Source: Ruegeria marina
GTDB taxonomy: Bacteria; Pseudomonadota; Alphaproteobacteria; Rhodobacterales; Rhodobacteraceae
DNA length: 44,614 bases
NCBI RefSeq assembly: GCF_900101475.1
Contig: NZ_FMZV01000026.1
Coordinates: 1-44,614 of the forward strand
Reading direction: 5' to 3'
A program made the translations under genes and the position numbers. Positions 5,717-40,755 of the stretch are shown here, piece by piece. Numbering within the stretch: the first letter of the stretch is position 1; every line of letters begins with the position of its first letter. The notes beneath the pieces were generated by a model. That model ran no database searches. It had not been told where the DNA came from and saw only the letters and a list, made by a program, of their open reading frames with translations.

Positions 5717-5744
5717 ATCTTTGGCGATCCGGGGGAACGCAACC

Positions 5745-6290: not shown

Positions 6291-6292
6291 CA

Positions 6293-7597
6293 ATGTCCCC
6301 CATTGAAATTGGCCTCATTTCGGTCGTCGCAATCGTCTTTCTGATCTACTCGGGCGTCTACATCCCCGTTGCGCTCGGCATGGTGTCCTTCGTGTCGATC
6401 TGGTTGATGCGGGACAACTTCACGCTTGCGTTGAACTTGCTCAAGATCGCGGTTGGCGACAGCGCGATGGAATACAGCTTCGCCACCATCCCGCTGTTCA
6501 CTTTCATGGGGTTAATCGTGTCGAAAGCTGGGTTGGGAAGGGACATCTACGCAGTCATGACCATGCGGTTTCGCAAGGTCAAAGGCGGAATTGGTATGGC
6601 CACGGTGGGCGCGAACGCCGTGTTCGCCGCCGTGACCGGATCGTCTATCGCGTCGGCTTCGGTCTTCACCAAGGTGTCCGTGCCGCAGATGATGGCGCAG
6701 GATTACAACTCCCGCTTCGCGGTGGGGGTCGTGGCTGGGTCGTCCGTGCTGGGCATGATTATCCCGCCCTCAGCCATGCTGATCATATACTCCTTTGTAG
6801 CCGAACAATCGGTGGGCGACATGTTCCTCGCCGGCGTCATTCCAGGCATCCTGCTGGCCATCGCTTATGTTGCCGCGATCTGGTTCATGGGCCGCTTCAC
6901 ACCGAACTTTGTCGGCGGACGGGTGGTCGAAGACACCGAGTGGATGTCCGCCCGTGAAATCGCGTCGAAGACTCTGCCGACCCTATTCCTGATCACTGTC
7001 GTTCTGGGCGGCATTTACACAGGCTGGCTCACAGCCGTCGAAGCCGGGGCAGCCGGGGCGCTTGTGGCACTAATCATCGCGTTCTTCCGCAGGTCGATGA
7101 CGCCCAAGGCCTTCTGGAACGCATTGCTGGAAACCGGCCACATCACAGCGGCGATCCTGTTCCTGATTACCGCCGCATCGATCTACAGCCGGATGTTGGG
7201 CCTCGCCGGTCTGCCAAATCAGCTCGAAGACCTGCTTGCAGGGAGTTCGGCATCCTTCTGGACGGTCATGTTGCTTTACGTCCTGCTTATGCTGTTCCTC
7301 GGCACGCTGCTGGACACCGCCTCGATCATCCTGATCGTCGTGCCGCTTTTCCTGCCTCTGGTAGAGGCGCTCGACATGTCGCTGATCTGGTTCGGTATCA
7401 TCACCGTGGTCGGTGCGGAGATTGGGCTTCTGACGCCACCACTAGGCATTTCGTGTTTCGTCATCAAATCTACCATCGACGACGATCGCATCTCGCTCAA
7501 GGATGTGTTCATGGGCGCCCTGCCCTTCGCATTCGTGATGCTGATCGTACTCTTTATCCTGATCGAGTTCCCGATCCTCAGTCTTGCGCTCATCTAA
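6293..7597 (+). CDS. dctM: TRAP transporter large permease (DctM type)
   Basis: A 434-residue polytopic inner-membrane permease of the ion-transporter superfamily with about 12 hydrophobic segments. Family landmarks are FATIPLFTFMGLIVSKAGLG, GANAVFAAVTGSSIASASVF (first helical hairpin with the substrate and sodium site), GSSVLGMIIPPSAMLIIYS, and LGTLLDTASIILIVVPLFLP followed by GAEIGLLTPPLG near the C-terminus. It is the transport channel of the putative malonate TRAP system and closes the operon; the following 210 bases up to the convergent CoA-transferase gene hold no recognisable gene. Confidence 0.9.
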   Translation: MSPIEIGLISVVAIVFLIYSGVYIPVALGMVSFVSIWLMRDNFTLALNLLKIAVGDSAMEYSFATIPLFTFMGLIVSKAGLGRDIYAVMTMRFRKVKGGIGMATVGANAVFAAVTGSSIASASVFTKVSVPQMMAQDYNSRFAVGVVAGSSVLGMIIPPSAMLIIYSFVAEQSVGDMFLAGVIPGILLAIAYVAAIWFMGRFTPNFVGGRVVEDTEWMSAREIASKTLPTLFLITVVLGGIYTGWLTAVEAGAAGALVALIIAFFRRSMTPKAFWNALLETGHITAAILFLITAASIYSRMLGLAGLPNQLEDLLAGSSASFWTVMLLYVLLMLFLGTLLDTASIILIVVPLFLPLVEALDMSLIWFGIITVVGAEIGLLTPPLGISCFVIKSTIDDDRISLKDVFMGALPFAFVMLIVLFILIEFPILSLALI

Positions 7598-19277: not shown

Positions 19278-19922
19278 ATGCAAGACCCTGTCTACGAGGA
19301 GGCCTATCAAGGCCATATCATCAAGATCCACCACGACCCCGATACTGAGAGCCCACGGGAGTGGTCCAACCTCGGTACGCTGATCTGTTGGCATCGGCGC
19401 TATCGGCTGGGCGACAGCCATCCCTTCGACAGCCCAGATGCGTTCCTGCGCGATCTCTCGGGCGTCACAGACCAGAGCGACCTCTCGATGGAGCAGCTGC
19501 GCGAGCGCGCCGAGCGCAAGGCGATCTTACTGCCCGTGTTTCTCTACGATCATTCCGGTCTCGCGATGAACACGATCGGGTTTCACTGCCCGTGGGATTC
19601 CGGCCAGGTCGGCTACGTTTACGTGACGCTGGAGGCGGTCCGGAAAGAATTCGGTGTGAAACGCGTCACCAAGGCGCTGCGCGAAAAGGCCAAAGACATT
19701 CTGCGCGCTGAGATCGTCACCTTCGATGCCTACCTCGGCGGCCGGGTTTATGGCTATGTCGCCGAGCGTGACGGCGAGGAGGTCGATGCCTGCTGGGGTT
19801 TCTTCGGGCACTATGAGTTGGACTGCCTGTCCGAGGCACGAGCATTTGTAGATCACCTGACTTTGCGAGAGCTGCACAGACCTGCCGGCGCCGAACAGGG
19901 CGCAAGCCCACCCCCGAGTTGA
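19278..19922 (+). CDS. Conserved protein of unknown function (phage/plasmid type)
   Basis: A 214-residue soluble protein. Readable landmarks are YQGHIIKIHHDPDTESPREW, LGTLICWHRRYRLGDSHPF, LPVFLYDHSGLAMNT, CPWDSGQVGYVYVTLEAVR and a C-terminal LGGRVYGYVAERDGEEVDACWG. I recognise this type from phage and plasmid genomes, where it is unnamed; the repeated W, C and H residues suggest a compact beta-rich fold. The ATG at 19278 follows AAAGGACATCGAC. It is the last gene of the hairpin-spaced series before the toxin-antitoxin pair. Confidence 0.65.
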   Translation: MQDPVYEEAYQGHIIKIHHDPDTESPREWSNLGTLICWHRRYRLGDSHPFDSPDAFLRDLSGVTDQSDLSMEQLRERAERKAILLPVFLYDHSGLAMNTIGFHCPWDSGQVGYVYVTLEAVRKEFGVKRVTKALREKAKDILRAEIVTFDAYLGGRVYGYVAERDGEEVDACWGFFGHYELDCLSEARAFVDHLTLRELHRPAGAEQGASPPPS

Positions 19923-19972
19923 AATGCCCGAAATACTCATATATCTTATTCATGCGTATTCCGGAGGTGAGC

Positions 19973-20224
19973 ATGGCAAGCACAAGCGTCACACTTGGCC
20001 CCCATTGGGACGAATTCATCGCCCTGATGCTGAAGGAGGGGCGTTATGGGTCAACCAGCGAGTTGATCCGCGCCTCTTTGCGCCTGATGGAAGAGCAGGA
20101 AGGCCAGCGGGCGCGGCTTCGGGTTGCGTTGATGGAGGGCAAACAGTCCGGTGATGCTGGCCCGCTCGATATGGATGAGATCAAGCGCGAGGCACGGAGC
20201 CGCTCCGGCGCTCCGGATGCGTGA
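19973..20224 (+). CDS. parD: ParD-type antitoxin (CC2985 family)
   Basis: An 83-residue ribbon-helix-helix antitoxin: the DNA-binding strand and helices read TSVTLGPHWDEFIALMLKEG, then RYGSTSELIRASLRLMEEQE, and a variable acidic C-terminal arm that would wrap the toxin. It should neutralise the ParE toxin encoded next and repress the operon. CCGGAGGTGAGC gives a good ribosome site for the ATG at 19973. The gene overlaps the toxin gene by eight bases, typical for the pair. The AT-rich stretch at 19930-19955 is the likely promoter and operator. Confidence 0.9.
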   Translation: MASTSVTLGPHWDEFIALMLKEGRYGSTSELIRASLRLMEEQEGQRARLRVALMEGKQSGDAGPLDMDEIKREARSRSGAPDA

Positions 20225-20516
20225 CATCCATCATTCCCAGGCGGCAAAATCCGATCTCGTCGATATCTGGACCGAAACATATCGACAGTGGGGCGAGGCG
20301 CAGGCGGACCGCTATCTCGACGACATCGATCGCGCCCTAAAAGGGCTCATCGTCAATCCGCAAATGGGGTCTGACTGTTCGGATCTCTTGCCGGGTGCGC
20401 GCAAACTGATCACGGGTCGGCACCTCGTGTTCTACGAGGTCGGCCCGGACAGGATATTCGTGATCCGGGTCCTTCATCAATCCATGGATGTGCCGCGCCA
20501 TCTGCGGTCGTCCTGA
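20217..20516 (+). CDS. parE: ParE/RelE-superfamily toxin
   Basis: A 99-residue toxin of the ParE type, which generally inhibits DNA gyrase. Family features are SQAAKSDLVDIWTETYRQWG, AQADRYLDDIDRALKGL, NPQMGSDCSDLLPGARKL, and the C-terminal strand HLVFYEVGPDRIFVIRVLHQ with SMDVPRHL at the end. The start at 20217 overlaps the antitoxin gene. On a repABC plasmid the pair would act as an addiction module that kills plasmid-free daughters. Confidence 0.9.
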   Translation: MRDIHHSQAAKSDLVDIWTETYRQWGEAQADRYLDDIDRALKGLIVNPQMGSDCSDLLPGARKLITGRHLVFYEVGPDRIFVIRVLHQSMDVPRHLRSS

Positions 20517-27711: not shown

Positions 27712-27790
27712 GAGCGAGAGAAAGGGTGGGAGGGGTGACCCCTCCCGGGTGAGAGATTGCGCGCGGGGCTTGGGGCCAACCCTCAACCCC
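27712..27790 (+). promoter_or_regulatory. Two-hairpin 5' leader of the methylase-helicase gene
   Basis: It begins GAGCGAGAGAAAGGG (27712-27726), nearly identical to the leader of the ParB-like gene. An 8-bp perfect stem GGGAGGGG/CCCCTCCC with a three-base loop follows (27728-27746). A second imperfect stem pairs GGGGcTTG (27765-27772) with CAAcCCC-type sequence ending at 27790, directly before the ribosome site GGAG (27791-27794). ATG is at 27802, so leader length (90 bases) almost equals that of the ParB-like gene (86). Confidence 0.6.
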
Positions 27791-27801
27791 GGAGATTGCC
27801 G

Positions 27802-30800
27802 ATGAACGCTCACACCTATTCCGTCCCTATTGCGCAAGAGGCCGAGCCCCCTGCCCGCCTCACGGCCTCGCGCTTCGCCCACAACATAATCCAGGCTGCG
27901 AGAACCCTCGCCCCCATGTTCGAGACGGGCAGGTCCATCGACGCCGCTGCCCTGCGCGCCGCGATGGAAGAAGCTTTCGGTGCCAGCGACGCCAGCGGTG
28001 CCTGGGTCTGGAAGGATGCCTACGAGGCCGCCGAGGTGGCTCAGATATTGATACTCGCGCGCTACGGCGCGCTGATGCAGCGCCGGGCAGCCTCTCCGCA
28101 GGCTTTCCTCACCATGATCAAACGCCTCGCCGGTCTGGCACCGTCCCACACACGGCGCTCCGAAGACAGTGTCCGTCTGCAACAGTTTTCGACCCCTCTG
28201 CCGCTCGCAGCCATCGTCGCGCAGGCGGTGGGGTTTCGAGATGACGACCTGGTGCTCGAGCCCTCGGCCGGCACCGGCATGCTGGCGATCTTCGCCCGGA
28301 TTGCAGGCGCGCGGCTGGCGCTGAATGAACTCGCTGAAACCCGCCGCGCCTTGCTGGGACATCTGTTTCCGGAGGCGGTCCTGTCTGATCACGATGCCGC
28401 CTCGATCGACGACCGGCTGGATCGGTCGATCACGCCCTCTGTCATCGTTATGAACCCGCCCTTCTCTGCTGCGAACCATGTCGAGGGCCGGTTCCGGCAG
28501 GCAACCAGCCAACATGTGCTTTCCGCCCTGGCGCGACTCGCACCCGGTGGGCGTCTTGTCGTCATCACTGGCGAGAGCTTCGGCCCCTCCACGAAATCCT
28601 TCCAGTCGACGTTTCAACGGATTGGCCAAAGCGCCGACGTGGTGTTTTCCGCCGCGATCGACGGCAAGGTCTTCACGCGGCATGGCACTGCGATCGACAC
28701 GCGGCTCACGGTGATCGACAAGCGCGTGGCTGGCGATGAAGCGACCGCGCCGGTCGACATAGAGGCCGCCTATCATCCTATCTGCGCTACCACCGCCGAT
28801 CTCCTTGCGTCAGTTCTGGCCCACTGCCCGGAGCGCCGCAGCCTTCCGCCCTGCCCTACCAGTTCAGCCCTGTCGGTTCCGTCCCGCCCGACCCGAACGA
28901 ACCTGCACGCCCTGCGCAATGCCGCCCGTAAGGAAACCCGCGCTCTCGCCGAGGAACGCGCGAAACATCCCTTTGACGACATCGAGACGGCCCCGCTCGA
29001 CTATCTGCCGAAAACCTGGAGCGAACCCGACGGCACGCTGCAGGACACGGTCTACGAGGCCTATGATCTGCAGGCGATCCATATAGACGGCGGGGCGGAA
29101 CATCCGACAGCGCTTGTCCAATCCGCGGCCATGGCCTCGGTCTCGCCGCCCGTGCCGACCTATCGTCCCATCCTTCCGAAGAGCCTCGTCGCGGATGGCC
29201 TTCTCTCCGCGCCGCAGCTCGAAAGCGTCATCTATGCAGGCAATGCCCATAAGACGCACCTGAAGGGCTGGTTCAAGCGCGGCGAGATCGAAGGCAAGCT
29301 GATGGCAGCGGCCGAGAGCGACGAAGATGCCTTTCGCCTGCGCAAGGGCTGGTTTCTGGGCGATGGCACCGGTTGCGGCAAGGGGCGGCAGGTCGCTGGC
29401 ATCATTCTCGACAATTGGCTGAACGGGCGCCGCCGCGCGGTCTGGGTCTCAAAAAGCGACAAGCTCATCGAGGATGCCCGCCGCGACTGGATGGCGCTCG
29501 GTGGCCGTGAAAGCGATATCGTGCCGCTCTCAAAATTCCGCCAGGGCAGCGAAATCCGCCTGCCCGAGGGCATCCTCTTTGTCACCTATGCCACGCTGCG
29601 CTCCACTGAGCGCCAGGGGAAAGCCTCCCGCCTCGATCAGGTGACGGCCTGGCTCGGGGAAGGGTTCGACGGGGTTATTGCCTTCGACGAAAGCCACGCC
29701 ATGGCGAACGCCACCGGCGAAAAGTCCGACCGCGGCGACAAAAAGGCGTCCCAGCAGGGCCTCGCCGGCCTCGCGCTGCAGAACGCCGTGCCCGATGCGC
29801 GCGTGCTCTACGTCTCGGCCACTGGCGCGACAGTCGTCGGCAATCTCGCCTATGCCTCGCGCCTCGGCCTTTGGGGCACCGGGGATTTCCCCTTCGTGAC
29901 GCGGGCCGAGTTTGTCGCCGCGATGGAGGCCGGGGGTATTGCCGCCATGGAGATGATCTCGCGCGACCTGAAGGCGCTCGGGCTCTATCTCGCGCGCTCG
30001 CTTTCCTATGCCGGGGTCGAATACGAGATGCTGGTCCATGAGCTGACGCCTGCCCAGATCGCGATCTACGACAGCTATGCTGATGCGTATCAGATCATCC
30101 ACAATAACCTCGAGGCCGCCCTTCAGGCCTCGGGCGTCACCTCCGAGACTGGCACGCTGAACCCCCAGGCGAAATCCGCCGCGCGGTCTGCCTTCGAGAG
30201 CAACAAGCAGCGCTTCTTCAACCATCTCATCACCGCCATGAAATGCCCCTCGCTGATCCGTTCGATCGAGGCGGACCTGGCAGCGGGGCACTCGGCCGTC
30301 ATTCAAGTGGTCTCGACCAGCGAAGCGGTGATGGAGCGTCGCCTCGAAGAGATCCCGCCCTCGGATTGGGATGATTTGCAGGTCGATTTTACGCCGCGTG
30401 AGAACATCATGGACTACCTGATGCACAGCTTCCCGACGCAGCTCTTTGAGCCCTACACCGACGAAAATGGTGACCTCCGCTCTCGCCCTGCCCTTGATGG
30501 AGACGGCAATCCGATCATCTGCCGCGAGGCGGAGCGGCGGCGGGATGATCTGATCGAGCATCTTGGTGCCCTCGCCCCGGTGCAGGGCGCGCTCGACCAG
30601 ATCCTTTGGCATTTCGGCGGAGATGCTGTTGCCGAGGTCACGGGGCGCAAGCGGCGCATCGTGAAGACGCGCGAGGGGCGGCTCAAGGTCGAGAACCGCC
30701 CCGCCTCCTCCAACCTCGGCGAAACCCAAGCCTTCATGGATGATACCAAGCGCATCCTGATATTCTCCGATGCCGGTGGCACCGGGCGCAGCTATCACGC

Positions 30801-32199
30801 CGATCTTGGGGCAAAGAATCAGCGTCTGCGGGTGCATTACCTGCTTGAGCCCGGCTGGAAGGCCGACAATGCGATCCAGGGGCTGGGGCGGACCAACCGA
30901 ACCAATCAGGCGCAGCCGCCGCTCTTTCGACCCGTCGCCACAGACGTGAAGGGCGAGAAGCGGTTTCTCTCCACCATCGCGCGCCGCCTCGACACGCTCG
31001 GGGCCATCACCAAGGGCCAGCGGGAGACCGGCGGGCAGAACATGTTTCGTGCTGAGGACAACCTCGAGAGTACCTACGCGCGCGCAGCTCTGCGGCAGTT
31101 CTTCTACAAGCTGCGCGCGGGCAATATCGCGGCTTGCTCCTACGCGAAGTTTCAGGAGATGACCGGGCTGACGCTCGATGAGGCGGATGGCACCATGAAA
31201 GAAAACCTGCCGCCGATCCAGCAGTTCCTGAACCGCTGCCTCGCGCTCCGGATCGACATGCAGGACGTGATTTTCGAGGCCTTTGGCGGGTTCCTCTCGG
31301 CCATCATCGAAGATGCGCGCCAAGCGGGTACGCTCGATGTCGGCCTCGAAACCCTGCGCGCCGAGAAGTTCGAGATCGTCGATCGCAAGGTCATTTTTGA
31401 GCATGAGGCGACGGGGGCGACGGCCACCGCCCTGACCGTGGAGCGCACCGATCGCAACGATCCGCTCACCCTGCCCCGGGTTAGAGCGATCTGCGCAAAC
31501 ACGGAAGGCGCCACGCTCTGCTGGAACAAGACTTCCAAACGCGCGGCGCTGATGGTGAATGCGCCGGCCTTCATGGACGAGGATGGTGTGCCGATCCTGC
31601 GGGTGAAACTGTTGCGACCCATGACCACCGAGATCCTCGCGCTTTCCGAGTTCTCGAAATCACACTGGGAAGAGATCGATGATGCGATGTTCGAGCATCT
31701 CTGGCAGGCCGAGGTCGAGGCGGTGCCGGAGTTCACCACGTCGAGGATTACGCTGATCTGCGGTCTCCTTCTGCCGATCTGGGACCGGCTGCCCGCCGAC
31801 AACATGCGCATCTATCGCCTGCAGACCGAGGACGGCGAGCGCGCCATCGGCCGCTTGGTCAGCCAGGAACAGCTTCTCAATGTCTATGCGCGGCTCGGCC
31901 TCGACTGCCAGATCGAGATGACGCCGCAGGAGGTCGTCGCAGCGGTCATGGATGCGAGGACGACCCTGAACCTGCTTGGCGGTTACCAACTGCGCCGGTC
32001 GCTGGTCATGGGACAGCCGAGGCTCGAGCTCATCGGTGCATGGGGCGCGGTCCTGCCCTCTCTGAAGGCTTTGGGATGCTTCACCGAGGTGATTCAGTGG
32101 AAGACGCGTGTGTTCATCCCGGTGGATGGCATCGACGTGCTGGCGCGGGTACTCACCGAACACCCGGTTGGCGCCAGCGCCGCGGATGCCGCCGCATGA
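27802..32199 (+). CDS. DNA methylase-helicase fusion with strawberry-notch-type helicase (DarB-like)
   Basis: A 1465-residue protein. The N-terminal part is an adenine-type methyltransferase: QQFSTPLPLA (127-136), SAM-binding EPSAGTGML (153-161) and catalytic NPPF (218-221). The helicase part is strawberry-notch-like: Walker A GDGTGCGKG (520-528), DESH box (629-632), YVSATGA, and the C-terminal FSDAGGTGRSYHAD with QGLGRTNRTNQ (about 1026-1036, arginine-finger motif). Related methylase-helicase fusions include DarB of phage P1, which protects incoming DNA from restriction. A similar guard role during plasmid entry is plausible here, but chromatin-like remodelling or plasmid-specific methylation are alternatives. 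The stop overlaps the next start, and a special two-hairpin leader precedes it. Confidence 0.88.
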   Translation: MNAHTYSVPIAQEAEPPARLTASRFAHNIIQAARTLAPMFETGRSIDAAALRAAMEEAFGASDASGAWVWKDAYEAAEVAQILILARYGALMQRRAASPQAFLTMIKRLAGLAPSHTRRSEDSVRLQQFSTPLPLAAIVAQAVGFRDDDLVLEPSAGTGMLAIFARIAGARLALNELAETRRALLGHLFPEAVLSDHDAASIDDRLDRSITPSVIVMNPPFSAANHVEGRFRQATSQHVLSALARLAPGGRLVVITGESFGPSTKSFQSTFQRIGQSADVVFSAAIDGKVFTRHGTAIDTRLTVIDKRVAGDEATAPVDIEAAYHPICATTADLLASVLAHCPERRSLPPCPTSSALSVPSRPTRTNLHALRNAARKETRALAEERAKHPFDDIETAPLDYLPKTWSEPDGTLQDTVYEAYDLQAIHIDGGAEHPTALVQSAAMASVSPPVPTYRPILPKSLVADGLLSAPQLESVIYAGNAHKTHLKGWFKRGEIEGKLMAAAESDEDAFRLRKGWFLGDGTGCGKGRQVAGIILDNWLNGRRRAVWVSKSDKLIEDARRDWMALGGRESDIVPLSKFRQGSEIRLPEGILFVTYATLRSTERQGKASRLDQVTAWLGEGFDGVIAFDESHAMANATGEKSDRGDKKASQQGLAGLALQNAVPDARVLYVSATGATVVGNLAYASRLGLWGTGDFPFVTRAEFVAAMEAGGIAAMEMISRDLKALGLYLARSLSYAGVEYEMLVHELTPAQIAIYDSYADAYQIIHNNLEAALQASGVTSETGTLNPQAKSAARSAFESNKQRFFNHLITAMKCPSLIRSIEADLAAGHSAVIQVVSTSEAVMERRLEEIPPSDWDDLQVDFTPRENIMDYLMHSFPTQLFEPYTDENGDLRSRPALDGDGNPIICREAERRRDDLIEHLGALAPVQGALDQILWHFGGDAVAEVTGRKRRIVKTREGRLKVENRPASSNLGETQAFMDDTKRILIFSDAGGTGRSYHADLGAKNQRLRVHYLLEPGWKADNAIQGLGRTNRTNQAQPPLFRPVATDVKGEKRFLSTIARRLDTLGAITKGQRETGGQNMFRAEDNLESTYARAALRQFFYKLRAGNIAACSYAKFQEMTGLTLDEADGTMKENLPPIQQFLNRCLALRIDMQDVIFEAFGGFLSAIIEDARQAGTLDVGLETLRAEKFEIVDRKVIFEHEATGATATALTVERTDRNDPLTLPRVRAICANTEGATLCWNKTSKRAALMVNAPAFMDEDGVPILRVKLLRPMTTEILALSEFSKSHWEEIDDAMFEHLWQAEVEAVPEFTTSRITLICGLLLPIWDRLPADNMRIYRLQTEDGERAIGRLVSQEQLLNVYARLGLDCQIEMTPQEVVAAVMDARTTLNLLGGYQLRRSLVMGQPRLELIGAWGAVLPSLKALGCFTEVIQWKTRVFIPVDGIDVLARVLTEHPVGASAADAAA

Positions 32200-33242
32200 G
32201 CGCGCGGCGCAGCATCGCAGACCTCTCGGTCGACCTCTCAGACCGCGCCGAGAGTTTCTGCCGCCGGTATTTCCCCGAGGGGCGCAAACAGGGCAACTAT
32301 TGGCAGGTCGGCGATACCTCTGGCGCCAAGGGGCAGAGTCTCGCGATCCGACTGCAGGCGCAGGACGGGCGCAAGGCCGGGTCCTGGACCGACTACGCGA
32401 CGGGTGAATATGGCGATCTGATCGACCTGCTGCATGAACGGCTTGGATCGGTCACACTCAAAGAGACGCTGAGGGAAGCCCGGTCCTTTCTCGGCGAAGC
32501 CTCCTGCCCCACCGTACCTCTTGAACCCCGAAAGGCGGAGCGCCCGGATGCTGCCTCCTGCAAACGCATCGCGCGGGCGCGCAAACTTTTCGCCGCCGGC
32601 AAGCCGGTTCTTGGCACCCTGGCCGCCACCTATCTGCAGGGGCGCGGGATCACACGACTTGGACCTGCCCTCCGTTATCACCCTCGGGTTTTTCTGCAGC
32701 AAGGCCAGGACGACGCCGATCCGCCGCAAAGGACCCCTGCCCTTTTGGCAAAGATCACCGACAATCGGGGCCAGATCACCGGCTGCGCGCGGCTCTATCT
32801 CGATCCGTCCACCGGCGGTTTGGCTGCGATCGAGAGCCCGAAGCGGATCCTCGGACAGCTGCACGGCCATGCCATCCGCTTCTGGTCCGGCTCACCTCGC
32901 AGCGATCTCATCGTCGGCGAAGGGCTCGAGAACACCCTCTCTGCCGGCACTGCTCTCCCCGAGTTCGATCTCGCCTCCTGTCTCACCGCTACCCATCTCA
33001 GCCTCTTCATCCCGCCACCGGGGATCAAGCGCATCTGGATCGCGCGGGACAATGACGAAGCCGGACGCAACGCATCAAAGATACTGCGTAACAAACTGGA
33101 ATCGCTTGGAATTGCCTGTGGTGACTTCGTGCCGAGCATGGGCGATTTCAACGACGATCTGCGGGCACTTGGCAGAGATGCGCTGCGCCGGTCCCTGCTC
33201 AAGGCCATGAAAGCACAAGGTCTGGAGATCGAGGACGGGTGA
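32196..33242 (+). CDS. Toprim-domain protein (DUF7146/primase-like)
   Basis: A 348-residue protein. The N-terminal region has the primase-like GNYWQVGDTSG and SWTDYATGEYGDLIDLL segments of DUF7146-type proteins; there is no CHC2 zinc finger. The C-terminal Toprim fold shows the catalytic Glu242 in VGEGLENTLSA and the metal-binding Asp285-Asn-Asp287 in ARDNDEAGRNAS. It may prime DNA or cleave/rejoin strands on incoming single-stranded plasmid. The start overlaps the methylase-helicase stop (ATGA), so the two products are made together and may work as one complex. Confidence 0.85.
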   Translation: MSARRSIADLSVDLSDRAESFCRRYFPEGRKQGNYWQVGDTSGAKGQSLAIRLQAQDGRKAGSWTDYATGEYGDLIDLLHERLGSVTLKETLREARSFLGEASCPTVPLEPRKAERPDAASCKRIARARKLFAAGKPVLGTLAATYLQGRGITRLGPALRYHPRVFLQQGQDDADPPQRTPALLAKITDNRGQITGCARLYLDPSTGGLAAIESPKRILGQLHGHAIRFWSGSPRSDLIVGEGLENTLSAGTALPEFDLASCLTATHLSLFIPPPGIKRIWIARDNDEAGRNASKILRNKLESLGIACGDFVPSMGDFNDDLRALGRDALRRSLLKAMKAQGLEIEDG

Positions 33243-33379: not shown

Positions 33380-33426
33380 GAAAATTCCCCTGCCCCTTTG
33401 GGCCATTCCTCGCGGGGCCAATTTTC
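33380..33426 (+). ncRNA. Candidate structured leader element, copy A (upstream of DUF2493)
   Basis: A 7-bp outer stem GAAAATT/AATTTTC (33380-33386 with 33420-33426), a two-C bulge on the 3' side, a CCCC/GGGG inner stem (33387-33390 with 33414-33417) and a small CCC-TTT-GGG hairpin inside. The loop GGGCCATTCCTCGCG (33400-33414) is identical to copy B at 36047-36061, while the outer stem has no sequence in common. The gene starts 115 bases downstream. The rest of the 33243-33540 gap has no gene. Confidence 0.55.
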
Positions 33427-33540
33427 CGGCCCGCGGCGCATTCTCCGCTGCGCTCCGATCCTGACGGATGCGGCCCGGTCGCCGCCGGTCCTTTTATCGC
33501 CCCATCCAAATCGGGTCAGATCAAACAGAGGAACCAGACA

Positions 33541-34452
33541 ATGCCCCATCAGACAGACATCCAAGAAGAGACCGGCGTGACCTCCGCCATCCTCGACCAC
33601 CTGGCACTTCACGGCGCAACGCCCGGGCCCGGCGAGACCGATCATCGCCCCCTGCCCCAGCCCGACGAGGTCGAGCTCGCCATGGCGACGCTCTTTGACA
33701 CCACTATCGGCCTCCTCACCGGCAGCCAGTTGGAAGACAATCTCGAAGAGATGCTCTGGTCCCTCACCTCGATCTTCCATCGCAGGCTTACCCATATCCA
33801 GAAGCTCCTCGATGACAACGAATTCGAGGTCCGGGAAAGTCTGGCCATCCAGGACGGCTCCGAGGTCGCTTCGGTCGAGCTTGAGCGCCTCCGGATGATC
33901 GGGCTCAAACTCTGGGACCACCGCGACGCCTTCGAGCAGATGCGCGATCTGGCCGTGGGCCACTTCTCGGCTGCCACCGGGTCTCCCTGGCTGCCACGCA
34001 CCGGATCCAAAGTCTCGCATCGCGGCTTGACCTCCGCCGTCGTGGACAGCCGGGCCTATCTCTCGGCCAAACGACGTAAGGAGACCGAGGTGCACTGCCC
34101 TGAAGGCACGCGGATCGCCTTTTCGGGCGGGGACTACCAGGCCTACGATCTGATCTGGTCCGTCCTCGATGCCACCCACACGAAATACCCCGACATGGTG
34201 CTCCTGCATGGCGGCACGCCCAAGGGTGCCGAGATGATCGCCGCTCGTTGGGCAGATACCCGTGGCGTCACCCAGGTGGTCTTCAAACCCGACTGGAAAA
34301 GCCACGGGAAGGCCGCCCCCTTCAAGCGCAACGACAAGATGCTTGAGACGATGCCGCAGGGTCTGATCGCCACTCCCGGTTCGGGTATCACCGAGAACAT
34401 CGTCGACAAGGCCCGCAAGCTCGGGATCCGCATCAAGAGGATCGGGGCTTAG
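33541..34452 (+). CDS. DUF2493 domain protein (SLOG-like Rossmann fold)
   Basis: A 303-residue protein. The N-terminal 170 residues are helical (LEEMLWSLTSIFHRRLTHIQ, AFEQMRDLAVGHFSAATG); the C-terminal DUF2493 domain has TRIAFSGGDYQAYDLIWSVL, MVLLHGGTPKGAEMIAARWA and QVVFKPDWKSHGKAAPFKRN. The HGGxxKGAExxA loop is the nucleotide-binding feature of SLOG/YpsA-like domains, which sense or process nucleotide ligands. Its partners in the module (methylase-helicase, Toprim) suggest a DNA-entry or defence-signal role; the reaction is unknown. The ATG at 33541 has a GAGGAA site; the long in-frame extension upstream is the leader. The TAG stop sits in the loop of its terminator. Confidence 0.8.
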   Translation: MPHQTDIQEETGVTSAILDHLALHGATPGPGETDHRPLPQPDEVELAMATLFDTTIGLLTGSQLEDNLEEMLWSLTSIFHRRLTHIQKLLDDNEFEVRESLAIQDGSEVASVELERLRMIGLKLWDHRDAFEQMRDLAVGHFSAATGSPWLPRTGSKVSHRGLTSAVVDSRAYLSAKRRKETEVHCPEGTRIAFSGGDYQAYDLIWSVLDATHTKYPDMVLLHGGTPKGAEMIAARWADTRGVTQVVFKPDWKSHGKAAPFKRNDKMLETMPQGLIATPGSGITENIVDKARKLGIRIKRIGA

Positions 34453-34469
34453 GCCCCGATTTTCTTTTG
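34441..34469 (+). terminator. Intrinsic terminator overlapping the DUF2493 stop
   Basis: ATCGGGGC (34441-34448) pairs with GCCCCGAT (34453-34460), loop TTAG, followed by TTTCTTTT. The stop codon lies inside the loop, so the last codons of the gene form the stem. Confidence 0.85.
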
Positions 34470-34727
34470 ATCAGCACGTTGTCGCCAAAGGATTGAGTTT
34501 CGGAGATGGTTTGTCGTGTGGGACGAGGCGGCCTTTCGAGCATCAACGGTCAATAGCGGCAGGGCTGAAGCGCTGCTAAGTTCCTCCGTACCCGAGGCTT
34601 CAGCCTGGTCGCTGATGGTTGCGTCATATGCTCATAAGTGTATGACTTCGGTGTGAATTTGATCGGTCGGCTCTTGTTGCAAGAGGCTACGAAAAGCGCT
34701 CTAATTCCGAAAAACAAGGAATTTAGT

Positions 34728-35585
34728 ATGAGCTGGACACTTTTCGTCGACGAATCCGGGCAGGATCAGCGGGAATCTCCCTACGAGGTGTTAGCCGGGG
34801 TCGCGATCGAGGACAGACAGATCTGGCCCCTGATCTGTCAGATATCGGACGCACAGCAGCACTTTTTTGGCATGCGGCTATTCGAAGCCTACGGTTATGA
34901 GGCGAAAGCCAAGGAGCTTCTGAAGAAGAAGACCTTCAAGCACGCCGGGCAGATGGACCTAATCGACAATGGCGAGCGGATGCGCCTCGCGAAGGAGATT
35001 TTGGAGGACGGGACTGCCGTGTCCCGGGCGCGGCTTACAGCATTGGCCCAAGCAAAAATCAGTTACTGCGAATTCGTCCTGGACCTGACCCGGCGACACG
35101 GTGGCAAGATTTTCGCCACAATGGTCCCGCAGTCAGCACCTCGGCCTCCGAATGGCGACGAGATGCGGAAGGACTATGCGTTCTTCCTCGAGCGCTACTA
35201 CCACTTTCTTAATCAAACCCCGAGCGATCCGATGGGCTTCCTCGTGTTTGATGAGCTGGACAAGACCGCTAGCCATGTCCTTCTCGGACAGATATCGCGC
35301 TACTTTCTGAAGACTAAGAACGGTCGGACAAGATCACGGCTTATTGTGCCGGAGCCAATGTTCGTGCACTCAGATCTCACGTCCCTCGTTCAACTCGCTG
35401 ACTTGGTGGCCTACATCATCAGTTGGGGTCTGCGACTGAACCGAATGCCGAGGAGTGCACGACCGGAACTCGCTTCGCTCTTCGAGATCGTTAAGCGCAT
35501 GAGATACAAGCACGTAACCGAAGGCGGGGATATTGTCTGGGGGATCAAGGAGATCAAGGATCTTAGGCCGCGTGATCAGGCCTGA
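34728..35585 (+). CDS. DUF3800 domain protein
   Basis: A 285-residue protein of the RNase H-like DUF3800 family. The opening strand has the expected LFVDESGQDQ with acidic residues, a mid-domain Asp/Glu pair in LVFDELDK, and the C-terminal QLADLVAYIISWGLRLNR helix with the conserved D-L-x-A-Y. Acidic residues at these places could bind metal for nucleic-acid cleavage. AAGGA lies seven bases before the ATG at 34728. DUF3800 proteins are often in defence islands or mobile elements; none has a firmly known role. It has its own upstream gap (34461-34727), so it is probably an independent cassette inserted between DUF2493 and DUF736. Confidence 0.8.
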   Translation: MSWTLFVDESGQDQRESPYEVLAGVAIEDRQIWPLICQISDAQQHFFGMRLFEAYGYEAKAKELLKKKTFKHAGQMDLIDNGERMRLAKEILEDGTAVSRARLTALAQAKISYCEFVLDLTRRHGGKIFATMVPQSAPRPPNGDEMRKDYAFFLERYYHFLNQTPSDPMGFLVFDELDKTASHVLLGQISRYFLKTKNGRTRSRLIVPEPMFVHSDLTSLVQLADLVAYIISWGLRLNRMPRSARPELASLFEIVKRMRYKHVTEGGDIVWGIKEIKDLRPRDQA

Positions 35586-36026
35586 CGAGGGCGCATAAAA
35601 AAAGGCAATGCAACGTTACCGTTCCAAAGCCTCCGGGAATCTATATGATGCCGGATAACAAGTGAGTCAAGACTTTTGTGGTTCCAATGTCGCTAGCACA
35701 CGATATATGTACGGGTTAGCGCGCACCTTGTTTTGCATGCTGGCCGCCGATAGATCCTTCCTAATTTCTATGCAATGAGCGCTCAGAAGGCCAACTACAA
35801 TCGCCGCGTACTGAGCTATCTAGGGATGATGGCCATGGGTCGGTCTCGATCGCTACGAGATCTCGGATGCCCAAATTCAAACGCGCGGTACGAACCTAGG
35901 TTGTCGCCCGGTATTTCCCTCGGCTGTTCCTTCAGTTTCCTTCGTGGCCACCGCTCTTCTCCTTTTGTCTGAGTTGCATGACATGCTGGTCGCAGCTGTC
36001 GTCCCGTCCACAAAGGATGTCGCCGA
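35586..36026. other. Intergenic stretch
   Basis: Roughly 440 bases between DUF3800 and the leader of DUF736. An A7 run follows the DUF3800 stop. Frames across this region lack ribosome sites and recognisable protein features. The long open frame on the opposite strand through DUF736 is a high-GC artefact. Confidence 0.4.
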
Positions 36027-36072
36027 TCTTTTTCCCCTGTCCCTGCGGGCCATTCCTCGCGCGCCAAAAAGA
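36027..36072 (+). ncRNA. Candidate structured leader element, copy B (upstream of DUF736)
   Basis: A 7-bp outer stem TCTTTTT/AAAAAGA (36027-36033 with 36066-36072), the same two-C bulge on the 3' side, CCC-TGC-GGG hairpin (36041-36049), and the shared loop GGGCCATTCCTCGCG (36047-36061). A second shared segment, CTCCGCTGCGCTYCG, follows both copies. The gene starts 100 bases downstream. Confidence 0.55.
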
Positions 36073-36172
36073 CCGGCGCCTGCCCCTCTCCGCTGCGCTT
36101 CGCCTTCGGTGTGGCCGGGCCTTGGCCAGCTGCAAGGTGACCATCATTGCAACGCAAACAAGGAGAAGAGCA

Positions 36173-36511
36173 ATGACCACGAACTGCATCAAATTCACCA
36201 GCGCCGACATCGAAACCGCCAAGGGCACAGGCTCCATCTCGACCCTGACCTTCGACCTCGACATCACGGTCGAACCTGTCGCGAGCGCGAACCCGATGGC
36301 CCCCACGCACCGCGTCCTCGGCCGCTCCCCGCGCGGCAAGCTGGTCGAGTGCGGCGGCATCTGGAAGAAGCAGAACAAGGAGACCGGTGCCGACTACTAC
36401 ACGCTGACCATCCGCGACCACGGCTTCAGCGCCAACCTCGGCAAGGCCGCGAACCAGGAAGATCTGTCCCTGCAGGCCGTCATCCCCTGGGGCCCGAAAG
36501 ACGCCGCGTAA
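36173..36511 (+). CDS. DUF736-family protein
   Basis: A 112-residue protein. The C-terminal half carries the family pattern: CGGIWKKQNKETGADYYTLT, then a DHGFSANLGK strand and LQAVIPWGP. DUF736 proteins are small single-domain products found on alphaproteobacterial conjugative plasmids and integrative elements; an OB-like nucleic-acid-binding fold has been guessed but function is unproven. The ATG at 36173 follows AAGGAGAAGAGCA, an excellent ribosome site; the longer open frame upstream is leader. A strong terminator follows. Confidence 0.8.
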   Translation: MTTNCIKFTSADIETAKGTGSISTLTFDLDITVEPVASANPMAPTHRVLGRSPRGKLVECGGIWKKQNKETGADYYTLTIRDHGFSANLGKAANQEDLSLQAVIPWGPKDAA

Positions 36512-37003: not shown

Positions 37004-38215
37004 ATGCGAGAACGGTCTTTTGCGGCTGATACGAAGGATCAACCCTTCGACGAGATCATCCTACAGCAAGGAGAGTTGATTTCCGACCGTCTCAATATGT
37101 TGCGGCAGGAACAGTATCCTCCGGACGCCCAAAAAGGTCTACGTCAGTTTTCATTGGCCGAGGTTGCCTACTATCTCGGCGTCACGCAGTCGACCATCAA
37201 GAAGCTTCATCTCGAAGGCAAAGGTCCTGAACCTGAGACATCGTCGTCCGGGAGGCGCAGCTACTCGGCCGAGCAGATGCTGGAACTGAGAGCTTATCTC
37301 GACAAGCATGGCCGCCCCGGAAAACGCCGTTATGTCCCCTATCGGCAGCCTGGCGAAGAACTACACGTCGTGTCCGTCGTGAACTTCAAAGGGGGTTCCG
37401 GAAAGACCACTACCGCCGCCCACCTTGCGCAGCACTTGGCGTTGAAAGGGCATCGAGTTCTTGCGATCGACTTGGACCCTCAAGCCTCGCTTACAGCTTT
37501 GCACGGCATTCAGCCTGAACTCGACGACGTGCCTTCGCTCTACGAGACACTTCGGTACGATGACGAGCGTAAGCCGATCTCAGAGGTGATCCGGCCAACA
37601 AACTTTCCCAACCTAGATATCGTTCCGGCAAGTCTCGAGCTTCAAGAGTACGAATACGATACCCCGGTTGCTTTGACGAGCAGCGATCCCCACGAAGGCC
37701 GTACCTTCTTCACTCGCATATCGAAGGCGCTTAGCGAGGTTGATGACCGCTATGACGTTGTTGTGATCGATTGCCCTCCTCAACTGGGCTACCTCACGCT
37801 CACTGCTCTCACGGCTTCTTCCTCAGTCATTGTGACGGTCCATCCTCAGATGCTGGACGTCATGTCGATGAGCCAGTTTCTCCTGATGCTGGGCGGGATC
37901 ATGAAGACGATCCGTGACGCTGGAGCGAACATGCGCTTGAAGTGGTTCCGTTACCTAGTAACGCGATTTGAACCAACGGACGGTCCCCAAAAGCAGATGG
38001 TTGGGTTCCTCCAGGCGATGTTCCCAAATCAGATGCTGTCAGCTCCTGTGCTGAAGTCTACGGCGATCTCCGACGCTGGGATTACCAAGCAGACGCTTTA
38101 CGAAGTTGAACGGTCTCAGTTCGTGCGGACTACTTACGACCGTGCAGTGACATCTTTGAATGACGTGAACGACGAAATCGCCGAACTGATCCACAAGGCT
38201 TGGGGGCGTGAATGA
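37004..38215 (+). CDS. repA: Plasmid partitioning protein RepA (ParA-type ATPase)
   Basis: A 403-residue type Ib ParA ATPase. The N-terminal extension has the repABC marks FDEIILQQGELISDRLNMLR and a MerR-like helix-turn-helix (FSLAEVAYYLGVTQSTIKKL, 49-68). The deviant Walker A is FKGGSGKTTT (128-137), Walker A' region IDLDPQASLT (155-164), Walker B VVVIDCPPQLG. It drives plasmid segregation with RepB and represses the operon. AGGGCAGG lies just upstream of the ATG. First gene of repABC; flanked by the three TTTTGACAGCCGTGCA repeats. Confidence 0.95.
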   Translation: MRERSFAADTKDQPFDEIILQQGELISDRLNMLRQEQYPPDAQKGLRQFSLAEVAYYLGVTQSTIKKLHLEGKGPEPETSSSGRRSYSAEQMLELRAYLDKHGRPGKRRYVPYRQPGEELHVVSVVNFKGGSGKTTTAAHLAQHLALKGHRVLAIDLDPQASLTALHGIQPELDDVPSLYETLRYDDERKPISEVIRPTNFPNLDIVPASLELQEYEYDTPVALTSSDPHEGRTFFTRISKALSEVDDRYDVVVIDCPPQLGYLTLTALTASSSVIVTVHPQMLDVMSMSQFLLMLGGIMKTIRDAGANMRLKWFRYLVTRFEPTDGPQKQMVGFLQAMFPNQMLSAPVLKSTAISDAGITKQTLYEVERSQFVRTTYDRAVTSLNDVNDEIAELIHKAWGRE

Positions 38216-38221
38216 GTAAGG

Positions 38222-38272
38222 TTTTGACAGCCGTGCAGAGAGCCAGTTTTGACAGCCGTGCAACTGTCGAAA
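38222..38272 (+). repeat. Partition-site-like repeats, copies 2 and 3 (between repA and repB)
   Basis: TTTTGACAGCCGTGCA at 38222-38237 and 38247-38262, start points 25 bases apart. Copy 3 is part of a longer inverted repeat, GTTTTGACAG (38246-38255) with CTGTCGAAAC (38263-38272), nine of ten pairs. Location in the repA-repB gap is a known site for repABC centromeres. Confidence 0.65.
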
Positions 38273-38318
38273 CGCGCGCAGCGCGTAGGTTGGATTCTGA
38301 CGAAAAGGAGATGGCTTG

Positions 38319-39314
38319 ATGGCTCGCAAAGACCTCCTGAAGAGCGTCATGGCCGGCTCGCCGGAGCAGCCCAAGGATTCCGGTCGCTCTGGATATGCAA
38401 TGCGCGGTGCTTCGAAATCGATGAAGGTTTCGATTGATAGCCTTGCAGAGAACTCGAAACGTCTCCTTGAAGGCGAAACCATTGTCGAGATCGATCCGCA
38501 ATTGATCGATGTGTCATTCGTTTCGGATCGGCTTAGTGATGACGATGTTGCTTTCGACGAACTGAAAGCATCGATCGCAGCGGGTCGTCAGGACACACCG
38601 GTATTGCTTCGACCGCATCCGGAAGCGGATGGCCGCTATATGATCGTCTTCGGGCATCGCCGTGTGCGAGTTGCATCGGCGCTAGGCCGTAAGGTTCGCG
38701 CGGTTGTAAAACCAATGGACGATGTGGCCCACATTCTTGCTCAAGGGCAGGAAAACACTGCGCGTGCAGATCTTTCTTTTATTGAGAAGGCCCTATTTGC
38801 GAAGAGCCTCTTGGATATGGGGCAAGCGAAGGACGTGATTCAGTCCGCACTTACCATCGATGGGACGTTGCTTTCACGGATGCTGTCAGTGGCGCAGAAC
38901 GTCCCTCGACACGTCATCGAACAGATTGGGCCGGCCAAGCAGATTGGGCGTGATCGCTGGGAAGACTTTAAGAAGTTGGCTTCGGAACCATCGAATGACA
39001 AGATCCTCAAGGGAGCTTTGGAGTTTGACGGGTTTCAGAACCTCGATAGTGATGCTCGCTTTGAGCTCCTGCACAGCAAGCTGGCAGAAGCGGGTAGGGT
39101 GCCGAAGCGCCAAAAAACGCGTGCCGCGCCCAAGAAACGGACCTGGACCGCTGGCAAAGGCCGCATCAAGGGTGTCATCGGTCGGTCCGGAAAGGCATTC
39201 AGCATTTCGCTTACGGCACAAGATTCAACCGAGTTCGGGGACTTTCTCTCGGGTCGGCTTGATCAGCTGTACAGCGAATTCCTCGCGACGAAAGAGGAGC
39301 AGTCAGAACAATGA
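38319..39314 (+). CDS. repB: Plasmid partitioning protein RepB (ParB-type)
   Basis: A 331-residue centromere-binding protein. It starts MARKDLLKSVMAG, as repABC RepB proteins do. The ParB domain shows VLLRPHPEADGRYMIVFGHR (nucleotide-binding GHRR), the GQENTARADLSFIEKALFAK motif and a helix-turn-helix around DVIQSALTIDGTLLSRMLSV. The C-terminal part is basic then acidic and should dimerise. AAAGGAG precedes the ATG at 38319; a TTG one codon earlier is an alternative. Binds the repeats described above and partners RepA. Confidence 0.94.
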   Translation: MARKDLLKSVMAGSPEQPKDSGRSGYAMRGASKSMKVSIDSLAENSKRLLEGETIVEIDPQLIDVSFVSDRLSDDDVAFDELKASIAAGRQDTPVLLRPHPEADGRYMIVFGHRRVRVASALGRKVRAVVKPMDDVAHILAQGQENTARADLSFIEKALFAKSLLDMGQAKDVIQSALTIDGTLLSRMLSVAQNVPRHVIEQIGPAKQIGRDRWEDFKKLASEPSNDKILKGALEFDGFQNLDSDARFELLHSKLAEAGRVPKRQKTRAAPKKRTWTAGKGRIKGVIGRSGKAFSISLTAQDSTEFGDFLSGRLDQLYSEFLATKEEQSEQ

Positions 39315-39474
39315 TCTAGGCAAAAGAAAAGCCCCCAAGCAGCGTGGCCTGAGAGCTAATCTGAGAAGTTTGGTCGCTTAGAAGATATCTCTCCCGCGAA
39401 TCACTGTCAACAAGAACGCCACTTCGGCGAACGGCTTTCTTTTGCCTCTGCGTAACTGGAGGTGAGAAACAGGC
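39315..39474. ncRNA. repB-repC intergenic region, expected to encode the antisense RNA that controls RepC
   Basis: repABC plasmids carry a small antisense RNA here, on the minus strand. A plausible minus-strand terminator lies at 39320-39338, where GGGGGC is followed by TTTTCTTTT. On the plus strand GGCAAAAGAAAAGCC (39319-39333) can pair with GGCTTTCTTTTGCC (39433-39446), 14 pairs with one bulged A, in the repC leader just before its ribosome site GGAGGTGA. The antisense promoter was not pinned down. Confidence 0.5.
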
Positions 39475-40755
39475 ATGAAACATACAGGTTGGCGCAAGCC
39501 GACACCGGGTCTTGGCATTGCAGAGCAGCTTGCCCAAGCCGGTGAACAGGTGGCTGTACCCAAAACACGGGCCTTCGTGGCTGTGAAGCGGGTGGGGGCC
39601 TACATTGGCCTCAAGGCCGGAGACATGATGCTTCTCGACACGCTCGGGGCCTTTACGCAGGCCCAAGACTGGGAGGAGGGGCAGCGTCCGATCGTCTGGG
39701 CGTCGAACGCCTATCTGATGGAGCAGACGGGGTTCTCGCTCTCCGCGCTCAAGCGCCATGCCCGGCGCCTGGCCGAGATTGGCGTGATCTCCTTCCAGGA
39801 CAGCCCGAACGGCAAGCGGTGGGGCCGCAGGGACGCCGAGGGGCGCATTGTCGAGGCCTATGGCTTTGATTTGTCGCCGCTGTCGGCGCGTGTCGAGGAG
39901 TTCGAGGAGCTTCATGCCGATTTGCAGGCCGAGCGCGAGCTCTGTCAGCGCCTGAAGCGCCAGATCACGGTTGCACGCCGTATGATCCGCGCTCGGATTG
40001 AGGCGGCCGTCAGCAGCGCGCTGCGCGGCCCTTGGACGCAATTCACAGGCCTTTACGAGGAGCTTCTGGACCGGCTTCCTCGCCATCACGAAGCCTCAGA
40101 ACAGCTTGTGCGGCTGCTAACCTGGTTCAAGGAGCTTCAGGAGCGCGTCGAAGCTGCGTATCTCAAGGCAACTGAGGTTGTGCAACCTGTGGAAAACACG
40201 CGGGAAGCCAAGGAACAAGTTACTAAGAAGACTCAAGAAATGAACCCCAGGGAGGTCATTTCTGACCCTCATATACTAATTACAAACCAACTTGATCCTG
40301 TAACTAGTAATTCCTCAGAAAATGAGGAAGTCGCGGCGGCGGTGCCCAATGCTCAGCCCGAAGATCAAGTTGATAGGGAGCTGGAAGAATGGGTCGCCGA
40401 AGTGCGCAAGAAGCGCGCAGCGCTGGATCTGCCTACGATCATGCAGGCTTGCCCTGAATTTGCGTCTTGGGCGCGCAATATGGGCGGGTTCCTGAAGGAT
40501 TGGGGCGATCTGCACCGGGTCGCTGGTCAACTCAGGCCGATGATCGGCATTTCTGAACATGCCTGGAACGTGGCACAGGACCGGCTGGGCAAACAGGTGG
40601 CGACAGCGGCGCTCGCGCTCGTCTTCGAGAAGCATTGCGCGGGCGAAGTGTCCTCGCCGGGCGGCTATCTGCGCGGCATGGTCGAAAAGGCCGGGGCAGG
40701 GGAGCTGCACCTTGAGCGCAGCTTCTATGGCAGGCTCGGCGGGCAGGCAGCATGA
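39475..40755 (+). CDS. repC: Plasmid replication initiator RepC
   Basis: A 426-residue initiator. The N-terminal DNA-binding part reads FVAVKRVGAYIGLKAGDMML, SNAYLMEQTGFSLSALKRHA and RRLAEIGVISFQDSPNGKRW, a winged-helix typical for RepC; the C-terminal domain includes LGKQVATAALALVFEKHCAG and SPGGYLRGMVEKA. GGAGGTGAGAAACAGGC gives a strong ribosome site. The region 40195-40330 in the linker is distinctly AT-rich against its surroundings, and repABC origins are known to lie in such a stretch inside repC, so oriV is probably there. The gene ends 12 bases before the convergent recombinase gene. Confidence 0.94.
   Translation: MKHTGWRKPTPGLGIAEQLAQAGEQVAVPKTRAFVAVKRVGAYIGLKAGDMMLLDTLGAFTQAQDWEEGQRPIVWASNAYLMEQTGFSLSALKRHARRLAEIGVISFQDSPNGKRWGRRDAEGRIVEAYGFDLSPLSARVEEFEELHADLQAERELCQRLKRQITVARRMIRARIEAAVSSALRGPWTQFTGLYEELLDRLPRHHEASEQLVRLLTWFKELQERVEAAYLKATEVVQPVENTREAKEQVTKKTQEMNPREVISDPHILITNQLDPVTSNSSENEEVAAAVPNAQPEDQVDRELEEWVAEVRKKRAALDLPTIMQACPEFASWARNMGGFLKDWGDLHRVAGQLRPMIGISEHAWNVAQDRLGKQVATAALALVFEKHCAGEVSSPGGYLRGMVEKAGAGELHLERSFYGRLGGQAA
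40195..40330 (+). other. Probable oriV (AT-rich stretch in repC)
   Basis: Within the RepC linker, sequences such as catatactaattacaaacc and gtaactagtaattcc stand out against GC-rich flanks. In studied repABC plasmids the replication origin is inside repC in an A+T-rich region. Position is inferred from composition only. Confidence 0.45.

Follow-up and report, generated by a model that had tools for sequence, protein, structure and literature searches.

A stretch of 44,614 nucleotides (nt) from Ruegeria marina (contig NZ_FMZV01000026.1), referred to below as the window, was found to carry two copies of a structured element of about 60 nt, one leading a DUF2493 gene and the other a DUF736 gene. 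Computational analysis established that these copies belong to a family, that its stems covary, that its members are placed before genes and oriented with respect to relaxase genes, and that their mismatches are biased between the two strands. The place, the orientation, the strand that seems to fold and the set of genes fit a single-stranded DNA (ssDNA) signal for expression on entry. Judged from sequence, it is fairly probable that the element is an ssDNA hairpin on the transferred strand (T-strand), set before leading-region genes for their expression on entry.

In members of the family, a conserved internal loop, with CCCC on one side and TTCCTCGCG on the other, separates an outer stem (P1) from an inner hairpin (P2). 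Two loop classes were distinguished among the 126 unique copies that could be parsed (100 of class A and 26 of class B), and three matches remained unparsed. Class A has the layout P1 - CCCC - P2 - TTCCTCGCG - short spacer - C - P1', and class B the layout P1 - CCGXC - P2 - TTTX'CATCGCG - spacer - C - P1', in which X and X' covary (C/G in 12, G/C in 7 and T/A in 6 copies, n=26). P1 is A/T-rich beside the loop and G/C-rich farther out, and the sequences of both stems differ widely among copies. The two elements of the window were scored with a model, R1, built from 14 copies, and are listed here with their downstream boxes and led genes, the + strand being the gene strand:

33380..33426, + strand: element 1, class A, leading DUF2493, 48.4 bits with R1; P1 arms 33380-33386 / 33420-33426 (GAAAATT/AATTTTC), CCCC 33387-33390, P2 33391-33405, TTCCTCGCG 33406-33414
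33443..33457, + strand: second conserved box CTCCGCTGCGCTCCG, downstream of element 1
33541..34452, + strand: DUF2493 gene (Pfam YAcAr, SLOG family), led by element 1
36022..36077, + strand: element 2, class A, leading DUF736, 76.2 bits with R1; P1 arms 36022-36033 / 36066-36077, with the inner seven pairs at 36027-36033 / 36066-36072 (TCTTTTT/AAAAAGA), CCCC 36034-36037, P2 36038-36052, TTCCTCGCG 36053-36061
36088..36102, + strand: second conserved box CTCCGCTGCGCTTCG, downstream of element 2
36173..36511, + strand: DUF736 gene, led by element 2

Both elements were located where a preliminary description of the window had put them, upstream of DUF2493 and DUF736, and P1 of element 2 was seen to extend outward to 36022/36077 with a single A.C mismatch at 36026/36073. 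The 15-nt loop reported there, GGGCCATTCCTCGCG, does recur in both leaders and occurs exactly twice in the window (33400-33414 and 36047-36061); its conservation was borne out, but it is really part of a two-sided internal loop (CCCC and TTCCTCGCG) and not a plain loop. The two-C bulge, also described as a shared feature, was not conserved across the family (class A consensus CGCGnGnCAA). A second shared segment, CTCCGCTGCGCTYCG, was recovered after both elements (33443-33457 and 36088-36102), and the gene starts agreed with the 100-115 bases given, since DUF2493 (33541) begins about 115 nt and DUF736 (36173) about 100 nt downstream of its element.

The covariation that had been suspected from the two closing stems was real and strong across the family. 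In the alignment of hits, the combined score of P1 and P2 was 0.518, compared with 0.144 (standard deviation 0.008) for shuffles and at most 0.118 for slid arms, and 483 double-change cells were counted vs 171.6. Since this alignment leans towards model R1, the test was repeated on a set found in GTDB genomes by the loop pattern, which makes no use of P1 beyond its first two pairs and may share species with the hit alignment. This set comprised 122 matches; after removal of nine without the CAA anchor, 112 unique sequences were left. Of the 560 cells at P1 pairs 3-7, 517 were Watson-Crick, compared with about 307 expected from column composition; the outer stem thus pairs in the homologues.

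The two window copies by themselves could be due to chance. As single-stranded DNA of the - strand, which we infer to be the folding strand of both, they were not strikingly stable (z -1.6 for element 1 and -3.1 for element 2), and as RNA of the + strand they gave z -0.1 and -1.5, respectively. Similarly, when mismatches were allowed in the loop and box patterns, shuffled sequences were not strikingly poorer in them than the window. It is the family, in the form of the model hits and the pattern-only set, that raises the window elements above chance.

The size and host range of this family were then estimated by several searches. With the 91-nt DUF736 element as a blastn query, 181 plasmid records were matched at E <= 1, the weakest of which include chance matches, and 110 covered >= 80% of the query; no match was found in phage records. 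Model R1 gave 136 matches (128 distinct, one being the reverse-strand match of locus L015) in 95 sources. In whole genomes it was found in 14 of the 61 from the taxonomic family (E <= 0.01), and in 33 of 385 and 33 of 299 in the overlapping class and phylum samples (E <= 0.001), with four of the matched genomes in the phylum sample lying outside the class. The loop pattern alone was present in at least 119 stretches of GTDB genomes, 80 of them listed. Among the matches listed, the hosts included Rhizobiales, Rhodobacterales, Sphingomonadales, Acetobacteraceae and Caulobacterales, and also Oryzisolibacter, Thauera, Diaphorobacter, Hydrogenophaga, Thiobacillus and Stenotrophomonas maltophilia; in these last six, between seven and nine of the first nine positions of P1 are paired, two of these positions being fixed by the pattern. 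Copies were seen on both plasmids and chromosomes of alphaproteobacteria, and also in some beta- and gammaproteobacteria, in many cases with several copies per genome. In the genome of the window itself a third good copy was detected on another contig (C6), where a relaxase gene on the same strand follows after 2.7 kb.

Some further sequences were recorded beside these. A Planctomycetota contig with the loop pattern was set aside as a probable chance match, as it had no CAA anchor. The pattern was also present in 58 IMG/VR viral contigs (L267-L324), 37 of them without the CAA anchor; the 14 unique ones with the anchor had a mostly paired P1 and are perhaps conjugative elements that were classed as viral. 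A long extra hairpin, CACCCC...GGGGACCCCG, replaced the P2 loop in L008 (19934-20032), L063, L091, L117 and L118, and the same motif was seen within the second hairpin of L008 and L091. Another form of the element, with CCAGAATTTT as P1, was found in L014 (22481), L326 (8255) and L325 (10623), where it leads a small open reading frame (ORF) of about 57-66 codons near transfer genes.

The placement relative to genes was clearly non-random. An ORF (ATG with Shine-Dalgarno sequence, >= 50 codons) started 50-140 nt downstream of the element in 110 of 134 cases, a few places being counted twice; the corresponding counts were 8 of 131 for the other side and 15 of 360 for random places. The median distance from element to start codon was 114 nt in class A and 120 nt in class B. 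After exclusion of 11 of the 129 first genes called (doubtful, broken, near-duplicate or transposase-like), 118 were scanned for known families, some without any match: DUF736 was found in 60, YAcAr/DUF2493 in 32, the N-domain of ArdC in seven, and ArdA, ParD and SSB in one each. The classes differed in what they lead. Class B precedes DUF2493 in 23 of 26 copies, and class A precedes DUF736 in 60, DUF2493 in nine, ArdC in seven and other or unrecognised ORFs in 24. The expectation that matches would lie before DUF736 and DUF2493 in many alphaproteobacteria was realised.

The orientation of the elements was compared with that of relaxase genes (PF03432, PF03389), which were sought in 62 genomes and serve as a proxy for the origin of transfer (oriT). 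The comparison covered 139 elements; 11 listed matches were dropped, namely four family matches (E above 0.001) and seven matches outside the relaxase search (G137, G244, G382, G259, G191, G543 and G476). When a relaxase gene lay within 60 kb, the element was upstream of it and on the same strand in 95 of 100 cases. Neighbouring copies shared their strand in 47 of 49 pairs. The window contig itself had no PF03432 or PF03389 match. In Ti-type plasmids oriT is described between traA and traC (PMC8627217), and the relaxase gene is described as typically located in the lagging region (PMC11541004). With this placement, an element upstream of the relaxase gene implies that the entering strand is the template strand of the led genes, which is probably the case in most loci where the direction can be judged. 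The same direction was indicated by five plasmids in which a Ti-type nic motif lies next to traA, the T-strand being the template for nine of their ten strong elements. For this assignment, the nic motif and its strand polarity were used as we take them to be in Ti-type plasmids. A search of 71 genomes for the motif gave seven with a match, and only one contig (G669:C46) had motif and element within 60 kb of each other.

Which of the two strands folds was examined through the mismatches in the stems. A G.T pair is tolerated on the strand that folds and appears as A.C on the complementary strand. On the gene strand, P1 pairs 8-9 held 73 A.C-type and only four G.T-type mismatches among 187 unique arm pairs (26 vs three among 68 cluster representatives), P2 held 15 vs two, and P1 pairs 1-12 taken together held 138 vs 27. 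Since the mismatches tolerated on the gene strand are A.C and not G.T, the template strand seems to be the one that folds. Consensus folding with RNAalifold gave the same preference in the core, longer inserts being left out (class A, 84 rows, -9.3 for the template strand vs -1.0 for the gene strand; class B, 25 rows, -17.0 vs -7.7), and also in the longer leader. As a control, the thiamine pyrophosphate (TPP) riboswitch from the same genomes leaned modestly to its sense strand (-14.1 vs -11.9; computed on 23 of 30 loci, after exclusion of the long ones). DNA folding parameters favoured the template strand in 98 of 100 class A copies. The results suggest that comparing the numbers of A.C and G.T mismatches can help to separate a template-strand DNA hairpin from an RNA leader.

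Mismatch bias, RNAalifold and DNA folding together argue for a template-strand hairpin and against a structured 5' leader of the mRNA, in which the + strand would fold as RNA and control the led gene at translation or termination, perhaps by way of the anti-Shine-Dalgarno-like stretches TCCTC and TCCTCC. Such a leader would account for the fairly constant distance to the start codon, and the covariation is compatible with any single strand. It would also suit a second conserved box, TCCTCCRCTGCGYTYCGG, which with its hairpin follows about 10 nt after the element and continues towards the start codon (parsable in 134 of 229 leaders, with an ambiguous register); this box precedes different genes, as in the window at 33443-33457 and 36088-36102, and looks like an anti-Shine-Dalgarno stretch. 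Nevertheless, the + strand has few G.T pairs, tolerates A.C and folds worse in the alignments, and the window copies as RNA were not clearly stabler than shuffles. No Rfam family was reached at the gathering threshold in the window; at a low threshold nothing convincing appeared around the two elements, and one class B leader gave two matches far below their gathering scores. An mRNA leader is hence considered unlikely. The functional RNA proposed in the preliminary description was the less supported of its options, and the hairpin DNA and the backbone genes at plasmid entry, which it also named, fit the evidence.

A hairpin on the T-strand might instead be a site of second-strand priming, recruiting a primase (of the host or a plasmid Toprim protein) or RNA polymerase, with the position before genes being secondary. 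The evidence on strand and orientation is identical for this explanation and for entry expression, the blocks that hold the element also encode Toprim proteins in L006, L007, L328 and the window, and many genomes have multiple copies. However, priming does not require the narrow distance to an ORF or the recurring gene families, and the 17-kb plasmid L005 carries an element and no annotated primase. Priming as the sole function thus appears improbable. Frpo, the ssDNA promoter of plasmid F, was reportedly described by Masai and Arai in 1997 both as a promoter and for priming; by this analogy, priming may be an addition to entry expression rather than an alternative to it.

The symmetry of the inverted repeat, and the common conserved core before several gene families, would also be expected of a double-stranded operator bound by a plasmid regulator that keeps the leading genes off in the donor. 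A protein that reads duplex bases would not require P1 and P2 to vary with their pairing kept, though, and the strand asymmetry of the mismatches is unexpected for a duplex or a symmetric cruciform, so that an operator is very improbable. Finally, a spreading repeat (mobile or of the repetitive extragenic palindrome type) without function in cis is mostly refuted and scarcely credible: element and DUF736 do lie together in inverted repeats of 630-677 bp in L007, L013 and L325, with recombinase genes adjoining in L007 and L325, but the agreement in strand between adjacent copies and with the relaxase gene, the placement before ORFs and the wide differences of P1 and P2 among copies speak against it. 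Duplication was seen, a mobile fragment having been named in the preliminary description as a refuting case, yet it cannot explain the covariation.

For the ssDNA hairpin, the following sequence of events is proposed. When the plasmid arrives single-stranded, the template strand of DUF2493, DUF736, ardC, ardA, ssb or parD would fold into P1 and P2, with the conserved loop left exposed. In the recipient, one of its polymerases or loading factors would recognise the folded structure and start RNA on the entering strand, and the led genes would be made before the second strand exists. Conversion to double-stranded DNA would remove the hairpin and switch the signal off. Formation of the fold in the cell and the start of RNA at it are predicted from the computed evidence, and the on/off logic is borrowed by analogy from Frpo of plasmid F. 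ArdC of plasmid R388 is described as needed in the recipient and not in the donor (PMC7213743), which counts in favour of this reading.

Several observations weigh against the entry hairpin. Regarding the transferred strand, four elements lay downstream of the nearest relaxase gene (same strand) and one on the opposite strand, and for 39 of the 139 no relaxase gene was matched within 60 kb. The contrary tenth element of the plasmids with a nic motif, inside the 630-bp inverted repeat of L007, is opposed to its nic, and the element at 16492-16564 of G669:C46 points away from the relaxase gene and the nic-like motif, which reduces the count to nine of 11 strong elements when this contig is added. 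Moreover, the orientation relative to the relaxase is described as common to leading-region genes in general (PMC11541004) and is by itself no proof of a single-strand function. Regarding the folding strand, the mismatch signal stems mainly from P1 pairs 8-12 and P2; P1 pairs 1-7 had few mismatches and no asymmetry (A.C 12 vs G.T 9), and a sequence constraint on the A of the left arm at pair 8 could add to the bias. The DNA-fold preference was weaker in class B (template strand in 17 of 26, opposite in five, ties in four). The second box and its hairpin hold G.T cells in places, and this part of the module may act in RNA. A sigma-70 scan of the elements showed no -35/-10 enrichment over shuffles, which says little because the same scan found nothing above chance in the leaders of plasmid F either.

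More tentatively, and with somewhat less than even confidence, the family can be regarded as a second, unrelated kind of ssDNA promoter, with an internal loop instead of rebuilt -35/-10 boxes, two loop classes for different leading genes and an entry programme that would include DUF736 and DUF2493 as early establishment genes. This proposal covers copies on conjugative plasmids as well as on elements integrated into the chromosome, in Rhizobiales, Rhodobacterales, Sphingomonadales, Acetobacteraceae and others, with class A assigned to DUF736, ardC, ssb, others and some DUF2493 genes, and class B mainly to DUF2493. If true, the alphaproteobacteria would have a counterpart of the ssDNA promoters with a structure of its own, found through covariation. 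Leading regions and entry genes could then be located by sequence on symbiotic, marine and soil plasmids and on integrative and conjugative elements, and early roles related to establishment would be predicted for two common families of unknown function, DUF736 and DUF2493. A search of the PDB with an AlphaFold2 model of DUF736 (mean predicted local distance difference test score 70.6) gave no match at E <= 0.001.

Other parts of the window are listed here:

27757..32199, + strand: strawberry-notch-type helicase, in the same backbone block
32040..33242, + strand: gene with a toprim domain, directly upstream of element 1
37004..40755, + strand: RepABC replication block (ParA/RepA-like, RepB, RepC), downstream

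The window order is ParB, strawberry notch, toprim, DUF2493 and DUF736, with other genes in between, followed by repABC. Aminobacter plasmid pAA02 carries, in this order, ParB, strawberry notch and toprim, further genes that include a recombinase trio, and then DUF2493, DUF736, traGDC, nic and traA. Because of this resemblance in gene order, the window looks like leading-region backbone. In Aminobacter plasmid L328, too, the block includes a toprim gene. A DUF3800 gene (34638-35585) separates DUF2493 and DUF736 in the window; it looks like inserted cargo, the two genes being neighbours in L328.

The inverted repeats that hold the element and DUF736 are 97-99% complementary, with their arms located as follows:

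L325: 12922-13598 / 19835-20511
L007: 15756-16385 / 19882-20511
L013: 3424-4094 / 5686-6356

One arm seems to have decayed in L007. The repeats of L007 and L325 surround tyrosine recombinase genes and are, we presume, perhaps a recombinase-in-trio element that carries or captures the cassette of element and DUF736.

Among known systems, the cis-regulatory RNAs of alphaproteobacteria in Rfam resemble the element in being structured leaders whose stems covary and which precede a gene family, but none of them reached its gathering score in the window and the mismatch bias of the element favours the other strand. Searches of the open-licence literature of PubMed Central gave no recognisable description of it. 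In the papers covered here, the ssDNA promoters have been worked out in enterobacterial plasmids, and later searches are described as relying on similarity to these or on promoter boxes (PMC11541004, PMC12826799, PMC9849209). The anti-defence islands of leading regions of Samuel et al. (2024), with their Frpo-like candidates, are alike in that the entering strand carries genes for antirestriction, SSB and toxin-antitoxin systems, and differ in having been sought by BLAST with known Frpo/ssi and by searches for -35/-10 consensus sequences (PMC11541004); the main text of that article contains none of the terms alphaproteobacteria, Agrobacterium, Ti plasmid, MOBQ, DUF736 or rhizobi-.

A close likeness is also seen to Frpo/ssi of plasmids F and ColIb-P9, described as entering-strand stem-loops in the leading region, before ssb and antirestriction genes and in more than one copy per plasmid (PMC9849209, PMC11541004). 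In plasmid F, the leader before ssb has a second copy 5.4 kb further along, oriented alike, and both lie on the strand that carries ssb and psiB; from their place, these leaders should be the published Frpo copies. Masai and Arai are said to have presented Frpo/ssi as ssDNA promoters in 1997. Over 19.5 kb around the F leading region, model R1 gave no match at E up to 10 and, as far as tested against this region, the element does not appear to be a sequence relative of Frpo. According to PMC9849209, Frpo rebuilds -10 and -35 boxes, whereas none stand out in the element, with a scan that is insensitive to them. The element differs further in its length of about 60 nt, its conserved asymmetric internal loop, its variable stems and its host range.

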